NCBI GenBank assembly: GCA_018064925.1
Contig: JAGHUH010000021.1
Location: 62,001 to 126,000, forward strand
DNA from: Candidatus Cacconaster stercorequi
GTDB lineage: Bacteria; Bacillota; Clostridia; Oscillospirales; Oscillospiraceae
DNA: 64,000 nt
Direction of reading: 5' to 3'
The notes beneath the pieces are model-generated. The model had not been told where the DNA came from. It did no database searches and was given only the letters and a program-made list of their open reading frames with translations. A program made the position numbers and the translations under genes. The stretch's first letter is position 1. The number at the start of each line of letters is the position of its first letter. Of the stretch, positions 6,508 through 55,723 are shown piece after piece.

Positions 6508-6840
6508 CGTGACATCGCCGGAGGTGGTGGTCAGGTTCCGGTCATAGTGGCCGCTGCGGTAACCCTGACGGGCTTCGCTGCGCTCGTAGCGCGCTGCCTG
6601 GATGAGAGACTCGGCCTCTTTCTCCAGCAGCTCGTTCCGTGTTTCCTCCACGCTACCGCGGACTAATTCTTTCAATTGTCCCTTGATTACTTCCTCATTC
6701 AGTTGTACAATTTTCCCGGACATAGTTTGCAGTCTCCTTTCAGAATGTTTGTGTCGCAACTTCATTCTAACAGAGTCTGCAAGCTGTGTCTTTCTATTTT
6801 TTCAATTTGCGCAACTTATTGTACCTTGTATTATAAAGTG
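6505..6840 (-). mobile_element. IS256-family (mutator) transposase N-terminal remnant
   Basis: Reads MSGKIVQLNEEVIKGQLKELVRGSVEETRNELLEKEAESLIQAARYERSEARQGYRSGHYDRNLTTTSGDVTLH then ends. Confidence 0.8.
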
Positions 6841-18405: not shown

Positions 18406-19942
18406 TGATGAATGGGCATCCATGCGTGAGGCGGATTTTGATGCTATGCTGAAAAGCAGTGTTTCAGAATCCCCGCCGGAGGATGTTGTTTCTGCTGTAT
18501 CGCCATGCAAAAAAGCGCTGAATCGTGTGCTCATCGGCATTGTGCTTTCTGCCATCACATTAAACTTCTGGTGCCTGGACTATATCCTCCCCTCGGTTGG
18601 CGCATTGCTGTCTTTATTGGGTTTTCGCGCCCTGCGGCGTGAAAACAAATGGTTTTTCTATTGCTTCGCGCTGACTATTGTGAGTGGTGCGTACCTTTTC
18701 TGCGAATTGATTCTCAATACCACAATACTCCAAAGTGCCTTTTACGCTTCGTCTGTGGAAACCTTCCTGTCTGTTGTCGGTTCCCTGCTTCTCCTGCTTA
18801 AGTTTTACTGTTTTTGGCGCGGTATCTGCATTATACAGGAAAAAGCCGCGCTCCCCGCTCACGCAAACAGCGTATTGGCGTTGGTCGTCTGGTACGCCGT
18901 CATGCTGATCCTGGCCATTTTCCACTGTGAAAGTACCTTCGTCATCGGGATCGTCATTATCATTTTTGCTATCATCGTTTGCAACATTGCCAAGCTGTCA
19001 AAGGAACTCGATGCAGTCGGGTACGCCATCGCAAACACATCTCACAAAATCAGCGACAGGTGTCTTGTATGTATGATACTTGCCGCGCTTACTGTCGGCT
19101 GTGCCTGCGGCTATCTCTTCGGGGACAGTTATCGGATGGATTGGCAGACGGTGGATGCAGCGGAGCACAACAATGTGTCGGACATCAAAAGCAATCTGTT
19201 GGATCTGGGTTTCCCGGAAGCTGTACTGAATGATCTCGGCGCCGCTGATATAGCCGCCTGCAATGGCGCTGTTCAGGTCAAGAGCGGCGTTTCCGATCAC
19301 TTCGTTTACGGCTGCAGCAACCTGCCTGATGAAACATATAATAACCTCGGCTCGCATAACCTCCAGCCAACAGCGACAAGGGATCTGCGCATTACCAATG
19401 TGGCAGTCAAACTCTCCGGCACAGAGAATCGATGGATGACCTTCCAGCATTTTCGTTGGTTAAACCATCCTCGTTTTTATGGCACAGAAGCCTTTTATAT
19501 TGTCTCGCCCGCCTACCGGTATTCAAAAGATTGCAGCTGCGCCGGCGAGGCAACCGGGCGCGTATTATATGATGATGACGGCGGCAATAGTTATGCATCG
19601 CCCTACCATTTTCTTGGTGAGCAGGACAACGCCGGGGAAGTTCCTATCCTTGATTTTTCGGAAGAAGGCGGCATTATTGCCGGCTTTTCCGTGCCGCGCC
19701 AATGCCAAAATTGCCGTGGTTATATTGCGTATCCCGTTATTGCACACGGGAAAGAATATACCATCGGGAACTTTCTGAAATATTTTCATCAGCGGAGCTG
19801 CCTGCAGTATCCGGCTGTAACGGCAATGGAATTTTCCAAAGATAACGCGTGGAATACCTTCGCTTTTTCTGTATCAGCAAATGACTTTCTATTTTCCTAT
19901 GAAAGCGAATCTATCGAGGGATACAACAGGCACAGCGGATAA
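18398..19942 (+). CDS. Hypothetical membrane protein, probably anti-sigma partner
   Basis: Overlaps the sigma-factor gene; RBS GGAGGTGA; N-terminal cytoplasmic stretch then TM segments. Confidence 0.6.
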   Translation: MRNDEWASMREADFDAMLKSSVSESPPEDVVSAVSPCKKALNRVLIGIVLSAITLNFWCLDYILPSVGALLSLLGFRALRRENKWFFYCFALTIVSGAYLFCELILNTTILQSAFYASSVETFLSVVGSLLLLLKFYCFWRGICIIQEKAALPAHANSVLALVVWYAVMLILAIFHCESTFVIGIVIIIFAIIVCNIAKLSKELDAVGYAIANTSHKISDRCLVCMILAALTVGCACGYLFGDSYRMDWQTVDAAEHNNVSDIKSNLLDLGFPEAVLNDLGAADIAACNGAVQVKSGVSDHFVYGCSNLPDETYNNLGSHNLQPTATRDLRITNVAVKLSGTENRWMTFQHFRWLNHPRFYGTEAFYIVSPAYRYSKDCSCAGEATGRVLYDDDGGNSYASPYHFLGEQDNAGEVPILDFSEEGGIIAGFSVPRQCQNCRGYIAYPVIAHGKEYTIGNFLKYFHQRSCLQYPAVTAMEFSKDNAWNTFAFSVSANDFLFSYESESIEGYNRHSG

Positions 19943-20030: not shown

Positions 20031-20391
20031 TTTCTATAAATCTATTTGTACCGTTATTGTTCAGGTGTGTTCATTGTGGTGTTTGTTTCGGCACAAATCT
20101 GTTTCACCTTCGGCATGATGTCAATGCCGCGCCGGTAATCCGGTTTCCCCGCTCCGACAATGATCTGCCCGTTCTCGCCGTCACTGCGAATGAAGTACCA
20201 AAAGTGCGCTTAACTGTTTCTCATCCATTTTCGTTTCCTCCTGTAGCTCCAACAAATTGAAAGAACACCAATGAACGATTGCTATTAAACACATATTGGT
20301 TATACAACCGTTTGGCTTTTAATACCCCCAATGTCTGTTCTTTGCTCAATATACCAGATGAATGAAGTGCAGCATTTACGCGGCCTACGGG

Positions 20392-20663
20392 GGATCATCC
20401 CCGCGTGTGCGGGGAAAAGCCACCGGCATCTTCCCATTCGGAAAGATTTTTAGGATCATCCCCGCGTGTGCGGGGAAAAGCGCTTGACGGCAGGCAAGGC
20501 AATGGTCGGCTTCGGATCATCCCCGCGTGTGCGGGGAAAAGTTCAAACGCAGCTGCGCAAGGCGCACATAGGCGGGATCATCCCCGCGTGTGCGGGGAAA
20601 AGTCGTTCGGCTCGTCCGCAAACTCGCAGGCTACAGGATCATCCCCGCGTGTGCGGGGAAAAG
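20392..20663 (-). CRISPR. Type I-E CRISPR array: 5 identical 28-nt repeats, 4 spacers of 33 nt
   Basis: ggatcatccccgcgtgtgcggggaaaag at 20392, 20453, 20514, 20575, 20636; crRNA orientation inferred minus (CTTTTCCCCGCACACGCGGGGATGATCC), collinear with cas genes. Confidence 0.98.
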
Positions 20664-20687
20664 ACTTGTTTTTCTCTCATTTTCTTC

Positions 20688-21605
20688 TTATTTCTCGCTT
20701 TTTCTTTCTTCAGAAACAACAAGCTCCATTAACTTACCATAGACCCCATATGTCGCTTCGCAGTCGGCCATCGCACGATGCTGCCCGGTGCAGTCCAGCT
20801 TGAAGTGGTTTGCCAGCGTCGACAGCTTATAATTGTCCAGATTGGGCATCATGATCTGCGCCATCTGCTGGGTGTCGATAAAACGATTTTCCATTTCCTC
20901 GTCCATTCGCCGACAAGCCTCCTGCAAAAACGCCTGTTCAAAGGCCGCATGATGGCATACAAGGGGTAAATCCTCCACAAATTCCAAAAGTTGCCGAATT
21001 GCAATCGCCAATGGCTTTCCGGAAAGTTTCAAATCCTCATCCGTGATGCCAGTGAGATGCGTAATCTCTTTCGGGACAGGCTTGCCGCTGCATACAAATG
21101 TCTGCATTCGCTCCGCAATTTGCCCCCGCTCCACCAATAGCGCGGCAATCTCGATGATTTCATCCCTTTGTACATCCAAACCGGTCGTTTCAAAATCTAG
21201 CACGACATAGTCGGGCACCAGGAAGGCATCCAGTACATGGCGCTTCTTGGTATGCGTGGCAGCTATCCGCTGCTTGGAAAATGTAGAAAATCCCGTCTTT
21301 ACCTCCTTGTGCCCGGGAGGCAAACTCGCCCGTTCCGGACGGCGCATCATCTTAATCCCATCGTAGTCAACCGGCTCCCAGTAGGCATTGTGCACCCGGA
21401 AGTCCATGCGCTGCTCACCAGAGGCACTGTAAACCATGGTTGCATGGCCTCGCCCAATGTTTTCCGTAATCCGCAGCCACAGATTCTCCCGTACCCTTGC
21501 ACTGATATTGCCCACATAGACACCGGTGTTAATTTCAAAAAGCCATTTTGTCATGTCACCGCGCAGCTTTGGTGGACAATTGGAGAGCACTACAATGACA
21601 GGCAT
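20688..21605 (-). CDS. cas2: Cas2e fused to a DEDDh (DnaQ-like) exonuclease domain
   Basis: Cas2e N-terminus MPVIVVLSNCPPKLRGDMTKWLFEINTGVYVGNISARVRENLW...; C-terminal DFETTGLDVQRDEIIEIAA...HHAAFEQAFL...HRAMADCEAT exonuclease motifs. Confidence 0.95.
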   Translation of the reverse strand: MPVIVVLSNCPPKLRGDMTKWLFEINTGVYVGNISARVRENLWLRITENIGRGHATMVYSASGEQRMDFRVHNAYWEPVDYDGIKMMRRPERASLPPGHKEVKTGFSTFSKQRIAATHTKKRHVLDAFLVPDYVVLDFETTGLDVQRDEIIEIAALLVERGQIAERMQTFVCSGKPVPKEITHLTGITDEDLKLSGKPLAIAIRQLLEFVEDLPLVCHHAAFEQAFLQEACRRMDEEMENRFIDTQQMAQIMMPNLDNYKLSTLANHFKLDCTGQHRAMADCEATYGVYGKLMELVVSEERKSEK

Positions 21606-22553
21606 CTACAACCGCTCCTTTCCGTAGCTGTGGCCGGAGGGCAGTGTATCTCTCAGATTATCCCACAAATGCAGCTCGACGGGCGCATCCAGCTTGTCCG
21701 GCACGGCGTGCAGCAGGCTCCGAATGTCCTTGACCATGCGTTCTAAAATGTGCGCCTCCGTCATAGCATCCCGCACCTTACGCCGCATGACAGCCGGAAG
21801 ACCCGGCGGATTATCCGCAGCTACTGCAAAGGCCAGTGGAATAATCAGCTCCGCCTTGTACAGGTCGGCAATATCGTAGACGAACGAATTTTCATGTCCC
21901 ACATGGACGAACCCAAGCCCCGGCGAACAGCCCAGCGCAAATATCACCGCGTGAGCAAGGCCGTACAGACAGGCATTCCCCGCCGTCAATGCCTGATTGA
22001 CCGGGGAACCGTTCTCAAAATGCTCCGGATCATAATCGCGCCCATCCCACGGAACACCGCTCGCCTTCGATGCGCTCCGGTAGGCATTGCGAACGCGCGC
22101 CCCTTCTCGCCCGCGGAGCTGCTGCATGGTGAGCTTCGACACATCCTCTCCCGGAAAGCGCATGGCATACATGGCCCGCACCACATTCAAATGGCTTCTC
22201 TGATTGGAGACCAGCTCAGCCTGCTTCAGCAGCAGGGACGCACGGTGTGTCAACGGGCGGCCAGCGGCATAATAGCGCACACCCTTCTCCCCTACCCAGA
22301 TGACACAGACGCCCATGTCGCCGATCAGTTCCATGGCCCGGTGGGTCACATCCGTTCCGGGACCCAGCAGCAACACGGAAAAGGCGGCCGCCGGAATCAG
22401 CACGGAACCTTTCTCGTCCCGCACAACAATGGCACTGTCCTCTCGGCTGAGCTTACATCGCTCCAGATAGAGAAAGGTCATACGATCCGAGATCTGCGGA
22501 AGCGCTTGTAGTTCCGGGCGAAACATTCCGCCTGCGTCGCTCATTCCACACAC
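21606..22553 (-). CDS. cas1: Cas1e integrase
   Basis: LYLERCKLSREDSAIVV...GEKGVRYYA...LYGLAHAVIFALGCSPGLGFVHVGHENSFVYDIADLYKAE. Confidence 0.96.
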   Translation of the reverse strand: MCGMSDAGGMFRPELQALPQISDRMTFLYLERCKLSREDSAIVVRDEKGSVLIPAAAFSVLLLGPGTDVTHRAMELIGDMGVCVIWVGEKGVRYYAAGRPLTHRASLLLKQAELVSNQRSHLNVVRAMYAMRFPGEDVSKLTMQQLRGREGARVRNAYRSASKASGVPWDGRDYDPEHFENGSPVNQALTAGNACLYGLAHAVIFALGCSPGLGFVHVGHENSFVYDIADLYKAELIIPLAFAVAADNPPGLPAVMRRKVRDAMTEAHILERMVKDIRSLLHAVPDKLDAPVELHLWDNLRDTLPSGHSYGKERL

Positions 22554-23170
22554 CTCGTCACAGTCAGAAGTCCGCAGCCATAGGCCTTCTCCCGTCCGAT
22601 CCCCGATACCAGAGCTTGACGGAACCGCTGGGCATCCGTGACCGTCAGGGTTCCTTCAAAGACAGCCGTGCGGAAGGTAACGCGCCTTCCGCCGTCCGTG
22701 TTCTTGCGAAAGGATTCCCATGCGGTCTGCGTCACTGCAAACTCGTCAGGTTCAAGGTGGAAACCATGCTTTTCGGCACGATCTATCAACCATTGCGCCT
22801 GCTGGGCCACGGTCACATGGGCCAACACCTTGCCGCGTTTACCCATACCGGCACTTTTGGCAATGACCGGATTGGCTTTCAAACGAAAGTGACGGCGCTG
22901 CCCGACTCGGATATGGGCCAGAAAAGATTCGTAGTCCAGCGTTTCCCAGCCGTTTTCCGTACCGAACTGCTGCGAAGTTGTCGTTAATTCCGGCGGCGTT
23001 TCGCTGACAAGAAGCAGATAGGACTTCTTCAACAGCGTATCTCTGCGCCAGAGCTTTCTGCCCTTTCCGGCAAAGTCGTGCTCAATTGCTCCGTGGAACA
23101 GCGCAGGCGATGCCAATGCCATGATAGTCTTGCGCTGGGAGGTATCAAGTTCCATGCGTGTCAGATACAT
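22541..23170 (-). CDS. cas6e: Cas6e crRNA endoribonuclease
   Basis: MYLTRMELDTSQRKTIMALASPALFHGAIEHDF; C-terminal GIGREKAYGCGLLTV. Confidence 0.93.
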   Translation of the reverse strand: MYLTRMELDTSQRKTIMALASPALFHGAIEHDFAGKGRKLWRRDTLLKKSYLLLVSETPPELTTTSQQFGTENGWETLDYESFLAHIRVGQRRHFRLKANPVIAKSAGMGKRGKVLAHVTVAQQAQWLIDRAEKHGFHLEPDEFAVTQTAWESFRKNTDGGRRVTFRTAVFEGTLTVTDAQRFRQALVSGIGREKAYGCGLLTVTRCVE

Positions 23171-23824
23171 ATTCCGCCTCCACTTCCGCAAACGGATCGT
23201 GCTCCGTCTGCTCTTTTCCGGGGAGGATGACCTCCCGAACCTTGCGATAGCCAAATTCTCTCCGCCGGGGGCTGAAAGAAATCGGCACATCCCTGACCAC
23301 CGCAGCGCTCGAATCCAATGCCGACGCCTCCAGCACCAATCGAACGCTATCCTCGTGGATAACCAATCGAGGCTCCTCCCGCAGCACTGTTTCCAGATTG
23401 CCGTCCCGAATGCCTAACACCAACGGCAGGGTGGGTGGCAGGAGCGGCGGCCGAGAAACAGAGGGTACACCGGATGCGTCAGCCGATCTGCACAACGCTC
23501 CAACAGTTCCCGGTCATCCGAGGCAAGGCCGCAAAGAAATATGGCATCGCAGAGATAATAGCGATGGGTGACATAGGTGCTTGTGCCGTGAGCCATATGG
23601 AAGTCATGGAGCAGCTGTCCCTCCTGATCAACACGCACGCCAAATTGCAGCCGGGAAAGTTCCTGCAAGGCAAGCACATCGTCCCTGCGAAAGCCGCAGG
23701 CAGCGGCCAGCAATCCCAGAACGCCGCTTTTGGTAGGTTCGCGCTGCGTATCGCGGGTGTCGAATTTCGAATCAACGCCCCAGGACTGCATGGGTGCGGC
23801 AAGACGCAAAAGTAGCGTATTCAT
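23145..23824 (-). pseudogene. cas5e: Cas5e, split by an apparent 1-nt deletion near 23438
   Basis: MNTLLLRLAAPMQSWGVDSKFDTRDTQREPTKSGVLGLLAAACG... to ...YPLFLGRRSC in one frame (23414-23824), continuing as PPTLPLVLGIRDGNLETVL...EFGYRKVREVILPG in another (23145-23495). Confidence 0.85.
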
Positions 23825-24885
23825 ACGGTTTTCTCCCCTGTGTATTCCTCCAAACGGGCGAGGAGCGCCTTCAACGACAATACCTCGGCGTGGCCGGACA
23901 GAACCGCCTCGTCACCACAGCCCAAAGCCAGTTCCGGCTGCTCGGCAAAGCTGCTGCACAGCTTATCGGCATAGGCCAGCAGCGACTGGCAGGATTGACC
24001 GACATAGCCGTTCTTCTGATTTTTGATAGGATTTTCAAAAGCACCGGAAAGGTTTACCGGCTGGTCACGACGTATGGTAACATAGAGCAGATCCGGCAGC
24101 GTGCGGTTGGCAAAGGTATTCTGCTTGCCTGTGGGCATGGAGCAAGCAAAGGCCTCCACAAAGCCGCGCACCACCTGCGGTGTATCCGCGCCCAGATGGG
24201 TGGCCAGTTCCGTGACATTCACCGTGGCATAGCGATAGAGAGTCGCAGAGTTAAACTCCGCCGTATCCAGAAAGCCTGCACCGGATTCATCATCCGCCTT
24301 TTCATCATCTACAGCGGCGAAATAGTCGTATTCAATCTGTACGCCGTGGGTGGAGATGGCATGGGCCACCTGTGCGGTGGCATCATAATTGAGGGAGGGG
24401 TCACCGGCAACCATGCGGCCAAAGAGTGCAATATCCAGCGTGGGATGATCCTTCATAGCCTGCTTATAAACCGCTTTGTCCTTCTCTTCGGCAGCAGCCA
24501 GCGCTGCCAGTGCCCTGATCTGCGACTTGCTGACAAAGAACAGCGCCGCATTCTCGTTCTTCTTTTCGTCCAACTTGATGCCCACATTCTTCAGTGCTTT
24601 CAGTGCGGACTTCATGGCCTTTTCCGGGGCAATCGTTTCATCGATGGCCATTATCTCATCGGCAATCAGCTTGGGAAGCTGCTTGGTACGGCTACCCAGA
24701 GCTTCCACATCAAAGATCGTCTTGAAATACTCCCGTATAGCGCGCTTCCACGCCTGAGAAGACACACGGGCACGCTTCACACCGCCGTATATCGCGGTTT
24801 TGGGAGACCCGGTATCGTCTCGATTCACGCAGGAAGGCGGCACAGTCTGAATAGCATGGAGATCGATGTACAGCGAATTTTTCAT
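23821..24885 (-). CDS. cas7e: Cas7e (Cse4/CasC)
   Basis: LYIDLHAIQTVPPSCVNRDDTGSPKTAIYGGVKRARVSSQAWKRAIREYF. Confidence 0.96.
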   Translation of the reverse strand: MKNSLYIDLHAIQTVPPSCVNRDDTGSPKTAIYGGVKRARVSSQAWKRAIREYFKTIFDVEALGSRTKQLPKLIADEIMAIDETIAPEKAMKSALKALKNVGIKLDEKKNENAALFFVSKSQIRALAALAAAEEKDKAVYKQAMKDHPTLDIALFGRMVAGDPSLNYDATAQVAHAISTHGVQIEYDYFAAVDDEKADDESGAGFLDTAEFNSATLYRYATVNVTELATHLGADTPQVVRGFVEAFACSMPTGKQNTFANRTLPDLLYVTIRRDQPVNLSGAFENPIKNQKNGYVGQSCQSLLAYADKLCSSFAEQPELALGCGDEAVLSGHAEVLSLKALLARLEEYTGEKTV

Positions 24886-24908
24886 ATCTATTGTCCTTTC
24901 TCATCGAT

Positions 24909-25487
24909 TTATTGGTTGTCGGTTTTCAAGCGACAGAAATCCTCACCCCAGCAAAGCCGCACTTTGTCGGCAGTATCTGGGTTCTGGAAGAAATACAGAT
25001 CGGTTGCCAGTCGGACATAGTCCAGTGGGATATCCTTCGCCCGCAGAAGCGCAACCAAGCCGCGCAGATGGTGCGACAGTGCCGCCATATCAGAAGCCGT
25101 GGCCACGGGATAGAAGCGGCGGGAAATGCGCTCCCGATCCTCCTCACTGTCCATCAGACATCTTGCGGCGGCGCCCAAAGAATTCTCCTCACGATGCATG
25201 GCGTCATTCTTTCGGTCACGCCCCTGCTGATGCAGGGCAAACATGGTTAGTGCTGTGTAAATTGCCCACTCGGCGCGGCTCGGTTCTCCATATCCCACAA
25301 GTGCTTCCGGAAGATCCAGCAGGCACTCTCCCCAAAGCTCGGGGATCTCACCGGGGGCATGTCCGATGCCACGGCGCAGACGCGCCAACGAGGCACGCAC
25401 CGCGCTTTCAGACGGATTGGACAAGAGACGGTGAATTTTTGCTGCGGTAAATGCTTTGATTTGATCAGAATTATTCATGCGTTTCAC
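24909..25487 (-). CDS. cse2: Cse2 (Cas11e)
   Basis: Position in I-E operon; ASLARLRRGIGHAPGEIPELW, GAAARCLMDSEEDRERISRRFYPVATASDMAALSHHLRGLVALLRAKDIPLDYVRLATDLYFF. Confidence 0.92.
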   Translation of the reverse strand: MKRMNNSDQIKAFTAAKIHRLLSNPSESAVRASLARLRRGIGHAPGEIPELWGECLLDLPEALVGYGEPSRAEWAIYTALTMFALHQQGRDRKNDAMHREENSLGAAARCLMDSEEDRERISRRFYPVATASDMAALSHHLRGLVALLRAKDIPLDYVRLATDLYFFQNPDTADKVRLCWGEDFCRLKTDNQ

Positions 25488-25490
25488 CCT

Positions 25491-27077
25491 CTATACTCGG
25501 TCAATATTTCTCATGCCACTCCTGAACCACTGCATTGCCAAGGACGAGGAGTAGTATTTTTTCTTATCATTCCCCACAGAAACCATTTTTCCGATGAATG
25601 CGGATTGCCCGGCATCAGCCACCAGTTTCTCTGCCAGTTTCCACGCTGCGGCATCCGCTTCTTTGCACCAAGCATCAATCTTCTGTTCACGCGCCTCCGA
25701 AGTGTCTTCGGCATCCAGCGAGGCCAACCACTTACGGAAGGGCGCATCTATAACAAAATAGTAATGCTCTCTGGCAGCTGCATCGAGCTTGATCTTTTTC
25801 TCCTTGTCACCTCCAGAAGCGAGATACAGATCGTAGGCGAGAATACCCACCCGCTTGGCAATCCTGTCGCAGCGTGCCACCATGTCCGAGATGCGCTGGC
25901 GGTAGCTTGTCCCCAACTCAGAGAGCAGATTGAGGTGCAGAGAAAGAGAGTCAGAAAAAATGTTGTCAACCGAGGAGTGCTGCGCCTGATCATAGGTTAT
26001 GCTGACAAAGCCATAGCGCAGCATTATATTCTTCTGAATGCACTGGCCTCGTATCAGCTCAAAATGCCACTGGATAAGAAGCGAGTAAGTCTCTTTGTTT
26101 GCGATGATGCTGTCAAATTCGCGCCAGACCTGCCGCCTGTTGAGGGATCTGCACAGATTATTCTTCTCCTTCTTTTTATCCATCTTCCATATGGCCATCT
26201 GCTCGTTGTGGCTGATCTGTTCATAACATAATCCGCCCTTTGGCGACTTATAGCCCTCCAACTTTCCATTCTTCCTTACCAATTGGCCATATCTGGAATG
26301 GTAGGAGAGTATTGCCACCGGATTACGCGGGTATGCAATTTTTCGGACAGATTCATCGAATTTGATCTCTTCCTCCCAGCTTGCTGATCCGTTTTTCTCC
26401 CAGGGTGCCCCGTCACGATCCAGCAGGACAAAATTCAGCATCAATGTCTCAAAAAGCGTATTTCCCTGCGCCATAATCACTGCAAACTGGCCCAAAAGTG
26501 CCACTCCCAGCCCGCTTTTCAGCGTGTTGTCATCATATTGATTCATGCATACCAGCCAGCGGGCAGCCTCTGCATTACTGAGCGTTGTCTTTTCCGCTCC
26601 ACCTCTTTCGGAGAACAGTCTAGCCTTGTTTCCGCTTTCGGAAATTGCTCCGTTGATCTTCTGTACCGGCTCTGATTGTGGACGGGATGCCTCTGCGGGA
26701 ATGTTTGATATCTGCCAAAATGGTTTTGTGGGATGAAACAGCCAGAAGTTTTCCTCCTGTGCTTTGAGATAAGCTCGCAGCGGATCCTCTGGAAAATGCC
26801 CATACTCCCACAGTTCCATCCAGTGGTCGAGGGCATCATCGGCGTTCTCGATCTCCGTGTCTTCACCGGCAACATTCACATGCTCAAACACTGCATGGAG
26901 CACCGCCAACAGCAAGCGCAGGATGGCTGCGTCCTGCGTGGGCAGTTCTCCGGCAAGCCCTCGATAGCTGTGGGCATGGAGTAGCGCCTCTGTCAGGGAT
27001 ACCTCCTCAATACTGCAATCCTCTCGCATCACTCGAATCCAAGGCTCTTGCAGCAGGTTAAACTCTTTTCCCGCCAT
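25491..27077 (-). CDS. cse1: Cse1 (Cas8e)
   Basis: FNLLQEPWIRVMREDCSIEEVSLTEALLHAHSYRGLAGELPTQDAAILRLLLAVLHAVF. Confidence 0.95.
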   Translation of the reverse strand: MAGKEFNLLQEPWIRVMREDCSIEEVSLTEALLHAHSYRGLAGELPTQDAAILRLLLAVLHAVFEHVNVAGEDTEIENADDALDHWMELWEYGHFPEDPLRAYLKAQEENFWLFHPTKPFWQISNIPAEASRPQSEPVQKINGAISESGNKARLFSERGGAEKTTLSNAEAARWLVCMNQYDDNTLKSGLGVALLGQFAVIMAQGNTLFETLMLNFVLLDRDGAPWEKNGSASWEEEIKFDESVRKIAYPRNPVAILSYHSRYGQLVRKNGKLEGYKSPKGGLCYEQISHNEQMAIWKMDKKKEKNNLCRSLNRRQVWREFDSIIANKETYSLLIQWHFELIRGQCIQKNIMLRYGFVSITYDQAQHSSVDNIFSDSLSLHLNLLSELGTSYRQRISDMVARCDRIAKRVGILAYDLYLASGGDKEKKIKLDAAAREHYYFVIDAPFRKWLASLDAEDTSEAREQKIDAWCKEADAAAWKLAEKLVADAGQSAFIGKMVSVGNDKKKYYSSSLAMQWFRSGMRNIDRV

Positions 27078-29759
27078 TCACTCACCGATCCTTTCGTATC
27101 GTAGTCCATATTCCTTTTCGTAACACAAATGATAGCCACACAGGTCGCGTTCGCCCTTTTCATCCAGCAGGAGGATTAGCTCCCCGCTGAGCCACGGCGA
27201 TTCCTGCCAGGGTGCGAGATGTACAAGGGTTTCCCTCTCCAGTATCTCGATAACTTCGCTCTGGGTCTTCCCACAGCCGAACACAAAAGGCAGGCGCAAT
27301 CTTTGTAACGCAATCTGTCGAGCTTCCTCTTCGGAGGGGACGGTATCGCAGCGGAAAAGTGTCTCCGAAATCCACGGTAGACAGGCCACATGATCACTGT
27401 CTCTTCGGCAAAGCACCAGTACATCCACGGAAGCCGTGCCGTCTCGCACCGATGCCTCTGCTTTTTTCTCGCTTTCCATGTAATGATCCAATAGCCCGAC
27501 AATGCTATTTCTCGTTTCGCGTTTTGAATTTTTGGGACGAGGCAGGCACCAGTCATCGGCTGCGTTCTCCTTAATCTCCGTTCGGTTCCTGAACTCCATC
27601 CACGCCGGATCGTCCTGTTCTGCCTCACAGGGTTCAGCGTAGACGCTGTTTACCAACCATGGAATATCATCCGGAAGCCGGATAGTCTTTGGCAAATAGC
27701 GTCTGGTCTGCCGCAACAGCCACTCGCCGTAAATTCGGGCACTGCCTTTCTCTATCTCCTCCGTGCCCAAAACTGCACAGGACGGTTGGCATAGCGGTGC
27801 AGGACGCATGCGTTGATGGCGGTGCAGCCGTCCCATCCGCTGCAGCAGCAGATCCATAGGGCAAAGATCAGAGATCAGGTAGTCAAAGTCGATATCCAAG
27901 GATTGCTCCAGCACCTGTGTACCAACAATAATCACATGGTCACGCAATGCAGAAGTGGAGGTCTTCCCTATCCTGTCCATGAGTTCTTTTTCTCGACGAA
28001 TGCGCTCCTCTGCCAGAAATTGCGCGTGGTACACGTAGATTCTCTTGTGTGGGAGCTGTTGGCGCAGCTTTTCGGCAATCTCCTGCGCCCGTTTCACTGT
28101 GTTGACGATGACACCGGCACACCCGCCCTCTGAGAGGTGCTCTCGGAGGGCATCGGCAAGCATTCCCTCTGTAAGCGTCGTAATCACCACTTCAGAGCTG
28201 CTGGAAGTATTCTGAATTGCAATCGAGCGCACCCCATCCGCATCTGCCCATGTAAGCAGGGGGTAATCCTCCGAAGATGGCAAAAAAAATATATCTCCAC
28301 CTTTTCCGTATGGCTTACTGTACGCCTGCAGCATCTCGCGTTTTTTCTCATTCGGAAGCGTAGCGGAAAGCAGGATGACAGGTACTTGATAAGCGCCAAG
28401 CCATTGGAGCATACGGAGCAGAAAGCGGCTCATATAGGCATCATAGGCATGGCACTCATCGATTACCACCACCTTGCCGCATAGGCCCAGATGCCGCAGC
28501 ATGACATGCTTTTGCCGTAATGCGGACATCAATGCCGTGTCAACTGTCCCCACCACAAAATCTGCCAGCAGCGCCTGCTTCCTGCCAGAAAACCAGCTAT
28601 GTACTGTAAGGCCACCGTTTCCGTCTTCTTCCACCATTGCCTTTCCACGGAAGAATTCGCGATAATCCTCGTTCAGTTCTGCCATACCGTGGACAAGGCG
28701 TATGGCGTGCGTCCCGTCCTGCGACACTCGCTTTGCCCATTGGGACATACGAGGAAACAGTCCGTTGGAGGTCGCCTGTGTCGGCAGGCCGAAAAAGATG
28801 CCGCCGCATCCAGCTCTGGCGGCCAGCATTTCCGCAGCTGCTAAAGCAGCCTCTGTCTTGCCTACGCCCATCTGCGCCTCGATAAGGAGCAGTCCTCCGG
28901 GATTAGGCCTCTCCTCCTGTGCCAGTGCCATGGCTGCCTTCTGTACGGTATTGGGCATAAAATGAAACCGATCATAAAACAGCTCTTCCCCACTTTTCCC
29001 TGCAGTATCGGCGCGCCAAGCATCTGTTAGGGCAATTCTCTCCAGCGCCTGCCGCTGTCGACGGGGATACATAGCCGCTTCCCCCGCTTCATCCGCTGCC
29101 AACAGTGGGAAATACTCCTGATTGCTGGCGATCCAATCGGCTTGAATGACAAGACCGCACAGTAACATCTGGGCACAGTGAGACAGTCTGGGAAGCTCCT
29201 CCACCGCAGTATATCCGCTTTTGTGAAGTGCTTCATCCAGAAGCCGCTTCTGCATCTCGCGCCAAAGCGGCTCCTGATTAGCGTAGAAACACCTGTCATA
29301 TGCAGAGATGGAGCATCTGCAGGCATCTGCAAGATCGGTAGGCTTCCCGTGGTGCGCTCCTACTACAGAGCAAATCCCATCCGCACAACCAAAGTCCCGG
29401 AGAATCATTTCTCCAGCCAACGCATGGGAGATGTTCCCCCCAGAAGGATACTCCGACAAATCAGGAACCCTCAGGCCGTTTGCAGAAAGGCACTCTCGCC
29501 TTTCCGGTAGGTTCAACAGAATCCTTGCGGCAAAGAGCGGCGTACATTTTCCCAAATCGTGCACCATTGCCAAAAACAAGCTCACCCGAGCAAAGGTTTC
29601 TCGTTCCAGCCCCATAGCTCGGATAACAGAATACGGCACACGATTTTTACAGAGAAACTCCATAACGACTGCGGTATCTTCTAAATGCATCCACAGTGGC
29701 AAATGCGCATGGTCGTTTCCAGTTTTACCTAGCAGCAGCTCGTAGGGAAGCATTTTCAT
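27078..29759 (-). CDS. cas3: Cas3 HD nuclease-helicase
   Basis: HLEDT...MVHDLGKCTPLFAARI, IEAQMGVGKTEAALAAAEM, VVIDECHAYD, VGTQVLEQSLDIDFDYLISDLCPMDLLLQRMGRLHRH. Confidence 0.97.
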   Translation of the reverse strand: MKMLPYELLLGKTGNDHAHLPLWMHLEDTAVVMEFLCKNRVPYSVIRAMGLERETFARVSLFLAMVHDLGKCTPLFAARILLNLPERRECLSANGLRVPDLSEYPSGGNISHALAGEMILRDFGCADGICSVVGAHHGKPTDLADACRCSISAYDRCFYANQEPLWREMQKRLLDEALHKSGYTAVEELPRLSHCAQMLLCGLVIQADWIASNQEYFPLLAADEAGEAAMYPRRQRQALERIALTDAWRADTAGKSGEELFYDRFHFMPNTVQKAAMALAQEERPNPGGLLLIEAQMGVGKTEAALAAAEMLAARAGCGGIFFGLPTQATSNGLFPRMSQWAKRVSQDGTHAIRLVHGMAELNEDYREFFRGKAMVEEDGNGGLTVHSWFSGRKQALLADFVVGTVDTALMSALRQKHVMLRHLGLCGKVVVIDECHAYDAYMSRFLLRMLQWLGAYQVPVILLSATLPNEKKREMLQAYSKPYGKGGDIFFLPSSEDYPLLTWADADGVRSIAIQNTSSSSEVVITTLTEGMLADALREHLSEGGCAGVIVNTVKRAQEIAEKLRQQLPHKRIYVYHAQFLAEERIRREKELMDRIGKTSTSALRDHVIIVGTQVLEQSLDIDFDYLISDLCPMDLLLQRMGRLHRHQRMRPAPLCQPSCAVLGTEEIEKGSARIYGEWLLRQTRRYLPKTIRLPDDIPWLVNSVYAEPCEAEQDDPAWMEFRNRTEIKENAADDWCLPRPKNSKRETRNSIVGLLDHYMESEKKAEASVRDGTASVDVLVLCRRDSDHVACLPWISETLFRCDTVPSEEEARQIALQRLRLPFVFGCGKTQSEVIEILERETLVHLAPWQESPWLSGELILLLDEKGERDLCGYHLCYEKEYGLRYERIGE

Positions 29760-39678: not shown

Positions 39679-41379
39679 TTACGGATTGCAGTTTTTGCAG
39701 GGTTCGTATCCCTGCTGAATCAAATTGCTGCGGCTTCCTTTATACACCGCATAGTTTTCCGGACTGATCCTTGCGGCGCTGGAGCAGGACGGAGAGTGGA
39801 ATTTCTTGCTATTCGTATTCAGCACATACGAACCGGTGGTCGGCGTCGTGGTAGTCGAGCTGAGCACCTTGACCGTAATGGTCTTGATGACGGATGCCGC
39901 CTTGTAGTTGGCGGTGGAGGCGGCCTTGATCCTCACCTTGATGGTGTATGTACCGCTCTTGGTGCCCTTGGCGATCTTCACTTTGCCGGTGCTGCTCACA
40001 CTCAGGCGGCTGCTGCCGGAGTACTTGGAGCAGGTAATGCTGCCCTTCGCCTTGGCGCCAATGGAGAAGCTCTGTGCGCTGCTCTTCACCGTAGCTCTCT
40101 TATAGCTCTTTGCGGTGGTGGCCACCGTAATCTTCTGGGATGCCTTGGTGATGGTCAGCTTTACGGCGCTTGCGGTTGCGGCGTTGTGATTCTTATCGGA
40201 GGCAACCTTGGCCTTGACATAATAAGTACCGGCATACTTGGGTGCCTTGCCGGTGGCAGATGCGCCGCTGTTGGAGGCGGTGGTCTTTGTGGTGCAGGCA
40301 CTGTTCTTGTAATATGTATAGGTCACTGTGCCAGAAGATCCGGTAACGGCAGCTTTGCCGATGGCGATGGCCTTGCCGGTATAGGCCGCCGATTTGGCCT
40401 TCAATGTCACCGAAGATGCCGCCTTGGTGATGGTCAGTTTGGCAACATTGCTGGTGGCGCCCTTATAATACATATCCTCGGCAACCGTTGCCTTCACATA
40501 GTAAACGCCGGCATACTTGGGTGCCTTACCGGTGGCAGATGCGCCGCTGCCGGAAATGGTGGTCTTTTTGGTGCAGGCACTGTCGGTATAGTATGTATAG
40601 GTCACAGGCCCCGTAGAACCGGTCACCGTGGCCGAGCCAATGGCGATGGCCTTGCCGGTATAGGTTTTGGTTTTATTGACCAGCGCGATCTTGCTGGCAG
40701 GACGGACTGCATTGACCACCGTACCGGTGGCATAGTTGATGGACTTGTCGGGCTGCACATTGTGGCAGAACACATTGAAGCAAATGCCCTCGCCGCCGTC
40801 CTCCACAGACCATGCCTCCATCTGAACGCCTCTGGCAATTAAGTCATCCCCGGAAAAGTACGGCGTAACGCGGTAGAGCACATGGTTGTCGGTTTCCTTG
40901 ACATAGTCCGCAACCATATTTTCAAACGGCAGCATTCCGCTGACATTAAAATACTGTGTACCGGTGATGAGATTGTATTCGTTGGCGTTCTCACCGGCCA
41001 GTTGGAAGCCGATCAGATGGCATCTCTGCCAGCCCATGTCGGAATGCCAGCCGGTAGGATGCACGGAGCTGATATCGCCGCGTTCTTCCGTCGGCATAAG
41101 CTCTTTGCAGATGTTGGCGTAGGCAACCTGACATCTGCCCAAAGCGTCCAACTCGCTGTACCGCTCAAACGCCGCGGTGGATACCTTGTCAGATGCGGAA
41201 AATGACGGGATATTATCATTGACTTCCGTATACGGTGTTCCCTGATACTTCGGTAATGTAGTAAGCTCGGTGGCCTCTGCCACGACGATACCGCCTGCGG
41301 CCTGATTTGTGCCGATCGGCATCAGCAGGCTGAATACCATAAGAATGGCCAGAACAGCGGATTTCCATCTCATACTCAT
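39679..41379 (-). CDS. Secreted DNA/RNA non-specific endonuclease with internal MBG-like repeats
   Basis: Signal peptide; LGRCQVAYANICKELMPTEERGDISSVHPTGWHSDMGWQRCHLIGFQLAGENANEYNLITGTQYFNV; repeated KTYTGKAIAIGSATVTGSTGPVTYTYYTDSACTKKT units. Confidence 0.88.
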   Translation of the reverse strand: MSMRWKSAVLAILMVFSLLMPIGTNQAAGGIVVAEATELTTLPKYQGTPYTEVNDNIPSFSASDKVSTAAFERYSELDALGRCQVAYANICKELMPTEERGDISSVHPTGWHSDMGWQRCHLIGFQLAGENANEYNLITGTQYFNVSGMLPFENMVADYVKETDNHVLYRVTPYFSGDDLIARGVQMEAWSVEDGGEGICFNVFCHNVQPDKSINYATGTVVNAVRPASKIALVNKTKTYTGKAIAIGSATVTGSTGPVTYTYYTDSACTKKTTISGSGASATGKAPKYAGVYYVKATVAEDMYYKGATSNVAKLTITKAASSVTLKAKSAAYTGKAIAIGKAAVTGSSGTVTYTYYKNSACTTKTTASNSGASATGKAPKYAGTYYVKAKVASDKNHNAATASAVKLTITKASQKITVATTAKSYKRATVKSSAQSFSIGAKAKGSITCSKYSGSSRLSVSSTGKVKIAKGTKSGTYTIKVRIKAASTANYKAASVIKTITVKVLSSTTTTPTTGSYVLNTNSKKFHSPSCSSAARISPENYAVYKGSRSNLIQQGYEPCKNCNP

Positions 41380-47765: not shown

Positions 47766-48005
47766 TTGCCCATTGCAATCCGTCTAAAATGTCTTTCACC
47801 TTAACCATACTCCTCTATATTTTCCTTTCATAATGATGCGAGCACCGTCTTAACCATAAGATGGTGCTCGCATTATTATTTGCATTGCAGACACGGCAGC
47901 AATGCAGCTCGGAAGCGCCTTTTCTGCCGTCATCTAAATAAAAATCGTGCATCCTTTGCAAGGATATGATATTATTAATATCTCGATAACGGGAGAGAAA
48001 GTCCG

Positions 48006-48164
48006 ATGAAGATTAGCCCGTCTTCTGCTTTGCGCAATAATTATACGCAAATTTCCGAACGCGCAAAAGTATCCGGTGATCCATTTTTTATTACGAATAA
48101 AGGCGAAGATGATGGCGTTTTTATGAGCATGGCGGCCTATGAAGATCGAGAGAAAATGTATCGT
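48006..48164 (+). pseudogene. Phd/YefM-like antitoxin, truncated at the mosaic block
   Basis: MKISPSSALRNNYTQISERAKVSGDPFFITNKGEDDGVFMSMAAYEDREKMYR then enters a repeated segment. Confidence 0.65.
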
Positions 48165-48636
48165 CATGGCTACTGCACAATCTGGTGGCCGGGAATGTAC
48201 CGCCTTTCATAATCTGCCATACCACACAGCCGCCCCTAACAGCCTGTGGCTATTGGGGGCGGCTTCCTCTGTAATGTGTGAAATATTTTCATCAGCGGAG
48301 CTGTCTGCAGTATCCGGCTGTAACGGCAATGGAATTTTCCAAAGATAACGCATAGTAAACGCCGGCATACTTGGGTGCCTTACCGGTAGCCGATGCGCCG
48401 CTGCCGGAAATGATGGTCTTTTTGGTGCAGGCACTGTCGGTATAGTATGTATAGGTCACAGACCCCGTAGAACCGGTCACCGTGGCCGAGCCGATGGCGA
48501 TGGCCTTGCCGGTATAGGTTTTGCTTTTATTGACCAGCGCGATCTTGCTGGCAGGACGGACTGCATTGACCACCGTACCGGTGGCATATTTGATGGACTT
48601 GTCGGGCTGCACATTGTGGCAGAATCCATTGAAGCA
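48165..48636. repeat. Mosaic block of three diverged copies of segments found elsewhere in the window
   Basis: 48165-48289 ~ 17679-17803; 48280-48351 ~ 19776-19847; 48351-48636 ~ 40497-40782 (286 nt each). Confidence 0.92.
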
Positions 48637-48957
48637 TAGGTCTTCATAAAAGAATTTGCCGGTATGGGCAAAAACCTGAATATTGCAATAACAAATTGAA
48701 CGCTCTTATCGACCGGATACGCATCAGCAAATTTCAGGCGTTCAAATCCTTTTTCGGAAATGGCTACCGTCTGCTCGCCAAGTTTGCCAAGACGGAGAGC
48801 CTTGTTCAAACTGCGGAGAGGAACGCCATCCACCACGAAAGCAGCGGATGCTTCGTTATGGAATTGCTGATTATATCTCGTTTTTCTGGTAGTCTGCGTA
48901 AGTTTAACTTGAAAAGAGTTGGCGACATGCCACTGTCCTTTGCGTTAATCAACCTGC

Positions 48958-53544: not shown

Positions 53545-55524
53545 ATGAGGAATGAAACTATGCCATCATCCATCTACAAGCACAGACCTGCCCCTGTGGC
53601 GGGGATGGATAACGCACACGCCGTTGAAGTTGCTCCCCTGCTGATGAAAGCGTATAACCAATCCGCCAAGATCAGCACGCCCCGACTGCTGACCGATTCG
53701 GAATTTGACGCCTTTACTGCCTATCTCAACGCCGATCCTCGGGAGGAAAATCCCCTCATCAAGGCAGAGCAGATCTATCATTCCGCGGAGTATGCCAAAT
53801 TTGAGAAGCTCAAAATGGCAGAGGTCAGCTATGAGAGCACCAAGCTGTTTTACGGGCTCCGCGAGCTTTTCGGTGATGACGGAATTACTATGGATAATCC
53901 CGAATTCCGGAAATATGCCGAGGATAATCTGCAAAATCCGTTCTTCCGCCTATCCATCGAAATGGCGGGTCATACGCCCAATCTGCAGCCGGAAAGCCTG
54001 CGGGACAACTGCAGCAGCATCGCCCGGCAGATGAATGAGCTCATGATGAGCCGTACCCTTCAGGTGCCCACACAGGAACAGCGCGAAAACCTTGCCGCTG
54101 CGCTGGGCAGCACCAAGCAGGCAGAACAGGAGATTCAAAAGAACAAGCTGACCCAAATCACGCTGGCAAAGACCATGTTTCTTGCCCATCTGGGCACATT
54201 CCATGTGGTCGATAAGAACGGGCACAACGAGCCCTACACCGGCAGCTATGCGGAAACGCTGGCGCATGGCGGACGCACCACCTTCTTCTTCGGGGCGAAC
54301 AAGCCCGGTACCGATACCATTGCACACAATCTGTTCCACGATCTGCGGGGTGACCGCGACAACGGAACAACCGTTTCCGGTCGTCTTGCCGCAACGCATA
54401 AGGCCGCCAGCGGTAAAGCCGCAGAGGGTGCCGGCGCCTATCAGGAAAAAAGCTCCAAGCTGGATATCCACGATAACTACGGCATGAATACCGCCGTGGG
54501 CGGTTTGGGCAACAAATTCGGCGAAAAGACCATGCTGAATGACGGGCGAAGCGGTCATCTCTTTATCAAGTCCATTGAAAGCACCGGGAAAAAGGGCGGT
54601 TGTCTTATGGTGGGCATGGAGGGCTCCGAAACCTTCAAAAAGGGCAAGACCGGACGGCTGCATCTGGGCGGCGGCAGTTCCAATACCTCGGCGTTCGTTT
54701 CCGGCAAGGGCGCTCCCGGCGCCAAGCTGGGGGGCCGTCTTGTGGATTTGTCCATCTGGGATCATGAAGCGCTGGGCGCGATCCTGAAGAAGTTCAACGA
54801 TGCCTACGGCCAGCTGCAGGATGACGCCTATGCGAATAAGCCGGGCGCAAAGGAAAAGCTGGATGCCGTCAACGCAAAGCTCAGCGGCAAAATGATGAAC
54901 GGTCAGGAAATAGACAAGGATGGCGTTGTGCAGTATAAGCTGGCAAAATTTCTGCAGGACGATCTGGGCATCCGGGAAATCAACATCAAGGGACACGATG
55001 TAACGCTCCGTAGCCTGTTGGAATACCGTGATCATTTCGGCGCCCGCAATTTCCAGGCAATGAATCAGACAGCGGCGAAGCGGGACAATGCCCTGCTGGA
55101 AAGCGGCGTGAGCAACGAACTGGATTATACCCCCAGCCCGGACTTTGAAACGCTGTCCGGTGAACTGGATCAGGCCAAGCGCTTTGTGCTCGGGAAAGAG
55201 AAGAATTCTCCGGAAATGCAGTTGGTGAAGCAGGCCATGGATCAGACGATGCTGCTGGTGAATGACCCGGAGGTCAACGGCTATGCCATGCGCCTGCAGT
55301 TGAAGCAGTTGAAAAAGATGACGGAAGTGTATCTGGGCAGCCGCAAAAAAGACAATGACCGGCGAAAAGTCGTCAGCAAAATTGATGCGCTGGCACAGCG
55401 CGAGCTGCAGCGCATCGACAGGATCATCGGGCCCGCCGATGCCCCCAACGCAGTGCCGCCGGCGCCGCACGAACAGCACATTGCCAAAACGCACACCGCT
55501 CCGTCGCTGGGCAGCTTAAAGTAA
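53545..55524 (+). CDS. Large soluble protein of unknown function (659 aa)
   Basis: Long ORF, no signal peptide; central Gly-rich region HGGRTTFFFGANKPGTDTIAHNLFHDLRGDRDNGTTVSGRLAATHKAASGKAAEG. Confidence 0.75.
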   Translation: MRNETMPSSIYKHRPAPVAGMDNAHAVEVAPLLMKAYNQSAKISTPRLLTDSEFDAFTAYLNADPREENPLIKAEQIYHSAEYAKFEKLKMAEVSYESTKLFYGLRELFGDDGITMDNPEFRKYAEDNLQNPFFRLSIEMAGHTPNLQPESLRDNCSSIARQMNELMMSRTLQVPTQEQRENLAAALGSTKQAEQEIQKNKLTQITLAKTMFLAHLGTFHVVDKNGHNEPYTGSYAETLAHGGRTTFFFGANKPGTDTIAHNLFHDLRGDRDNGTTVSGRLAATHKAASGKAAEGAGAYQEKSSKLDIHDNYGMNTAVGGLGNKFGEKTMLNDGRSGHLFIKSIESTGKKGGCLMVGMEGSETFKKGKTGRLHLGGGSSNTSAFVSGKGAPGAKLGGRLVDLSIWDHEALGAILKKFNDAYGQLQDDAYANKPGAKEKLDAVNAKLSGKMMNGQEIDKDGVVQYKLAKFLQDDLGIREINIKGHDVTLRSLLEYRDHFGARNFQAMNQTAAKRDNALLESGVSNELDYTPSPDFETLSGELDQAKRFVLGKEKNSPEMQLVKQAMDQTMLLVNDPEVNGYAMRLQLKQLKKMTEVYLGSRKKDNDRRKVVSKIDALAQRELQRIDRIIGPADAPNAVPPAPHEQHIAKTHTAPSLGSLK

Positions 55525-55686
55525 GCTGATGGAGTAAAAAAATCCGTTTTCTCGTATCATCGCCTGTTGAAACCGCGTTGGCGTTTTTATTGCGATCATA
55601 CGCGTGTTTTTCGCTATCTTTTTCGTTGATAATCTAAAATGAATAAAAATCGCGAAGCCACCCAACAGGAATTCAATTCTGCAAAC

Positions 55687-55723
55687 CGTGTCTTTCTTAT
55701 TTTCAATTTGCGCCACTTATTGG
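55687..55723. mobile_element. Short remnant resembling the IS256-like end at 6785-6822
   Basis: gtgtctttcttattttcaatttgcgccacttattggccctta vs gtgtctttctattttttcaatttgcgcaacttattgtacctt. Confidence 0.55.

Follow-up and report, generated by a model that had tools for sequence, protein, structure and literature searches.

Three ordered, diverged copies of upstream loci interrupt a Phd antitoxin gene and point to a trimmed direct duplication

In bacteria, the process called short-patch double illegitimate recombination (SPDIR) replaces single stretches of DNA with patches of a few to tens of bases. What is known of complex microhomology rearrangements in bacteria comes mostly from laboratory amplifications under selection. 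In the Escherichia coli Lac system, amplicon junctions carry 2–15 bp of microhomology and about a quarter of the amplicons are complex (PMC2621351), and one direct duplication that carries a deletion between its repeats has been read as two direct template switches (PMC3161906). Here we describe a block in a bacterial contig that would be a natural, unselected and slightly aged example of this kind of event.

The block lies in a window of 64,000 nucleotides, the whole stretch of DNA analysed (62001–126000 of a 132-kb contig), from a 1.83-Mb genome of Candidatus Cacconaster stercorequi in 46 contigs (88% complete); positions below are those of the window. Self-comparison of the window and the contig by repeat search and BLAST confirmed the proposal of a first-pass annotation that the block (48165–48636, 472 bases) is made of diverged copies of three distant loci, which follow one another directly and all read on the forward strand. 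Segment 1 (48165–48288) is 98.4% identical to 17679–17801, with one substitution and one 1-nt indel, and contains the last 15 codons and stop of an ABC-associated gene, a hairpin and the start region of a sigma-factor gene. Segment 2 (48279–48351) is 98.6% identical to 19776–19848, within the 3′ part of the sigma-linked membrane gene, and segment 3 (48351–48636) is 96.9% identical to 40497–40782, within a secreted nuclease gene to which it is antisense. The three loci are those named earlier, with two corrected ends: donor 1 stops at 17801 and not 17803, and donor 2 at 19848 and not 19847. Against the whole genome, the matches have E-values of 3.5e-55, 6.8e-30 and 1.2e-134 for segments 1 to 3, far beyond chance. 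Each segment has a single matching place, except that segment 3 is also 82% identical to an internal tandem repeat of the nuclease gene. The final 12 bases of segment 3, past two adjacent mismatches, may instead belong to the right flank. The copied pieces span 72–286 bp and hold about nine substitutions in total, so that all counts of changes are small.

All three donors are in place on the forward strand: donor 1 at an intact gene end and the adjoining intergenic region, donor 2 within a gene for a 517-aa membrane protein, and donor 3 within the intact nuclease gene (39679–41379, reverse strand). We also considered whether the C terminus of donor 2 might be the altered version, as a stop follows the copied piece directly in the block; homologues of the membrane protein run on beyond that point. 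The intact donor genes and these longer homologues indicate that the block is the derivative.

The donors are collinear with the block (17679 < 19776 < 40497 < 48165), share its orientation and all lie 30.5 to 7.4 kb upstream of it on the one contig, features that the first-pass annotation did not mention. By our arithmetic, under a uniform model, the observed order and orientation would arise by chance about 1 time in 48, and three random donors would all fall within 30.5 kb on either side with a probability of about 4e-5. Segments 1 and 2 meet, as had been proposed, at a shared TGAAATATTT (48279–48288, forward strand), an exact 10-nt microhomology common to donors 1 and 2; an overlap of at least 10 nt occurred at a frequency of about 1.4e-5 among two million random joins of the window. 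Microhomology at the join of segments 2 and 3 is 1 nt. At the right edge, CATTGAAGCA (48627–48636, forward strand) is a 10-nt stretch common to donor 3 and the block past the two adjacent mismatches; it is probably the microhomology of the last join, the alternative being that it is the end of segment 3. On the left, the likeness to intact antitoxins reaches a histidine codon that coincides with the CAT of CATGG in donor 1, and a microhomology of at least 3 nt (CAT) is therefore likely there. Set against the range of about 2–15 bp for the class, the joins carry probably at least CAT (left), 10 nt (1/2), 1 nt (2/3) and probably 10 nt (right).

Because the donors are co-oriented, ascending and within 30.5 kb upstream, they point to a direct duplication of 17.7–48.2 kb with large internal deletions and not to random capture. 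We infer that the block is probably the scar of a direct duplication from ~17.68 to ~48.16 kb, joined tail to head inside a Phd gene, with three large deletions and with joins formed by microhomology-mediated switching or slipped mispairing. The three donors elsewhere in the same genome are what the template-switch/MMBIR class predicts, and their direct orientation and collinearity with the source are what a direct duplication with embedded deletions predicts. Most of the second copy would have been lost, namely about 2.0 kb (17.80–19.78), about 20.6 kb (19.85–40.50) and everything from 40.78 kb to the right flank, in which a search for remnants of 40.8–48.2 kb gave chance-level matches only. 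A DNA polymerase could have made the joins by switching templates at microhomology, or short direct repeats could have mispaired by slippage. Under the duplication reading, segments 1 and 2 would meet where 2 kb was deleted in ordinary fashion between direct repeats of 10 nt. All joins may date from one replication accident (MMBIR or a long-distance template switch), or the duplication may have come first and the trimming later; both routes, the one-step template switch and the duplication with subsequent deletion, would end in an identical sequence. The 1-nt microhomology at the join of segments 2 and 3 counts against the reading as a duplication scar. Since RecA recombination normally removes large tandem duplications cleanly, a trimmed remnant is unusual. 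The block had previously been attributed to templated-insertion or template-switch repair: a DNA template switch does fit the microhomology joins and close donors, but the order and orientation of the donors argue for a direct duplication over a patchwork of three unrelated loci assembled at a break.

The interruption of a Phd-like antitoxin gene, also noted in the first pass, is supported by a Phd/YefM match (PF02604, E=1.5e-8) for its 5′ part (48006–48164, forward strand), which is cut off after about 53 codons. This part is 65–67% identical to the intact Phd of genomes G029 and G003; intact relatives in two genomes of the genus have 88 aa and are directly followed by a ParE-like gene, which marks the gene here as truncated and suggests, by comparison with these other species, that the locus once held a Phd–ParE site. 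The reading frame enters segment 1 in frame and stops at 48212, giving a product of 68 residues that borrows its tail (the final 15 codons) and its stop from the ABC-associated gene. A terminator-like hairpin is predicted to follow (48228–48264, forward strand). It folds better than that of the donor (predicted free energy −34.6 kcal/mol for 48221–48282 versus −29.4 kcal/mol), as one inserted base completes the stem. No ParE remnant was found beside or to the right of the block, and the locus holds less than a complete Phd/YefM–ParE module of full antitoxin followed by toxin. Under the duplication reading, the event would have broken the module and left a 68-residue Phd with a borrowed tail, stop codon and terminator; such events could thus leave readable traces and remove a toxin gene while sealing a truncated antitoxin.

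The right flank contains a fragment of a DUF3990-family gene (48691–48860, reverse strand) that is 49% identical to a protein of genome G018; that protein matches PF13151 at 8.6e-42, whereas the fragment itself reaches only E=0.02. No further copy of the fragment was found in this 88%-complete genome. The site therefore holds remnants of at least one toxin–antitoxin module and of one further gene. Searches of relatives in the genus gave no match to the block beyond 24–40 nt, and PepD and nucleotidyltransferase searches in the genus for an empty site returned distant relatives only. On the left, a long near-perfect hairpin with 23-nt arms (47830–47879), a strong terminator-like structure, separates an M20 peptidase gene from the truncated Phd gene. 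In genome G029, contig C115 carries two Phd copies 2.9 kb apart (L070, 832–987; L075, 1501–1656), the first followed by a ParE-like gene, and a duplication of the module is possible there.

An artefact of assembly or strain mixture, in which metagenome assembly inserted here reads from a second strain that is about 2% diverged, is unlikely. With its 46 contigs and 88% completeness, the assembly is fragmented and most probably metagenomic, and a divergence of 2–3% is the size of within-species differences. The first-pass annotation had taken the divergence as an argument against simple assembly chimerism, which is sound for a chimera of duplicate reads and leaves strain mixture as a rival. Assembler k-mers are normally longer than 10 nt, and a usual assembler should not be misled by overlaps as short as the 1 and 10 nt at these joins. 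Several such joins would have to fail independently, and a usual short read would be longer than segment 2. The differences in segment 3 are, moreover, not mainly synonymous: four of the seven clear changes are non-synonymous. These changes fit a copy under little constraint that is about 2% diverged, albeit in small numbers, and the block may have drifted to that divergence after its formation with no clear constraint.

Unrelated short pieces of chromosome captured at a double-strand break, in any order, by end joining or by uptake of degraded DNA in transformation, are a less probable source and one that we regard as quite unlikely. The shortness of the pieces (72–286 bp), the join with almost no microhomology and the presence of ComEC in the genome are in its favour. 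Collinear, co-oriented and local donors are not what it predicts, however, nor is a 10-nt overlap expected of blunt joining. For capture by non-homologous end joining (NHEJ), Ku (PF02735) was also sought in this 88%-complete genome without a match, which favours joins made by a polymerase or by slipped mispairing over such capture, given that 12% of the genome may be missing.

The rearranged stretch might also have formed in another strain of the species and been imported by homologous recombination, in which case the divergence would reflect the distance between strains and not the age of the block. No long neutral drift would then be needed to account for about 2% divergence, yet nothing tested specifically supports an import, and the segment 3 differences that can be polarised with the tandem paralogue in the nuclease gene lie mostly on the block side (three, versus one on the donor side); we judge an import improbable. 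Similarly improbable is a single multi-jump template switch whose product was kept because the Phd–ParE module became a lone, shortened Phd repressor with an in-frame tail, stop codon and terminator. Reverse-transcription-like patching, in which a break was filled with cDNA made by a reverse transcriptase that switched transcripts, had also been put forward and is hardly credible. Segments 1 and 2 do have the sense orientation of their genes, and an mRNA 3′ end lies in segment 1. Segment 1 continues beyond the hairpin into the following gene, however, segment 3 runs antisense to the nuclease gene, and no reverse transcriptase domain (RVT_1, PF00078) was found in the 88%-complete genome.

We also looked for a mobile or packed element, and found no convincing inverted-repeat pair bounding the block and no other copies in the genome; the same join was absent from the viral contigs searched. 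A 494-kb sample (27%) of the genome contained no second place that joins pieces of several donors, and so gives no sign of a dedicated system.

The proposed duplication scar resembles the complex Lac amplicons in its direct orientation, its duplication join with embedded deletion, its microhomology joins and its donors kilobases to tens of kilobases away (PMC3161906). Those amplicons are selected, young and identical in sequence, whereas the block is unselected, older and diverged, and would retain just 472 bp of a second copy reduced by three deletions. Several microhomology joins, short copied stretches and a discontinuous duplication also agree with the MMBIR/FoSTeS model (PMC2621351), although the block has no inverted pieces and its mechanism is deduced here from anatomy alone. 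The block can be read best as an ordinary kind of rearrangement that is rarely preserved, which calls for no new mechanism. With SPDIR it shares short intragenomic patches inserted at microhomologies; its pieces are much longer and form an ordered chain.

Elsewhere in the window, 20391–29759 holds a Type I-E CRISPR–Cas locus with a short array (28–29 nt repeats, 61 nt period). A Cas2–RNase T fusion, Cas1, Cas6e, Cse1 and Cas3 are assigned by Pfam, Cas7-like and Cse2-like open reading frames by position only, and the Cas5-like frame appears frameshifted near 23.44 kb (ORFs 23414–23824 and 23145–23495). A 46-nt stretch occurs at 6776–6821 and 55678–55722 (89% alike), outside long ORFs in both places, and the neighbouring 6684–6754 has a 90% match on another contig (C5:148116–148186); no Rfam family matched. 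A 659-aa ORF at 53545–55524 carries an Ntox11 domain (E=3.3e-14), and an inverted copy of 139 bp of it (54987–55125), 90% identical, lies close to one end of the other contig (C5:190567–190705).
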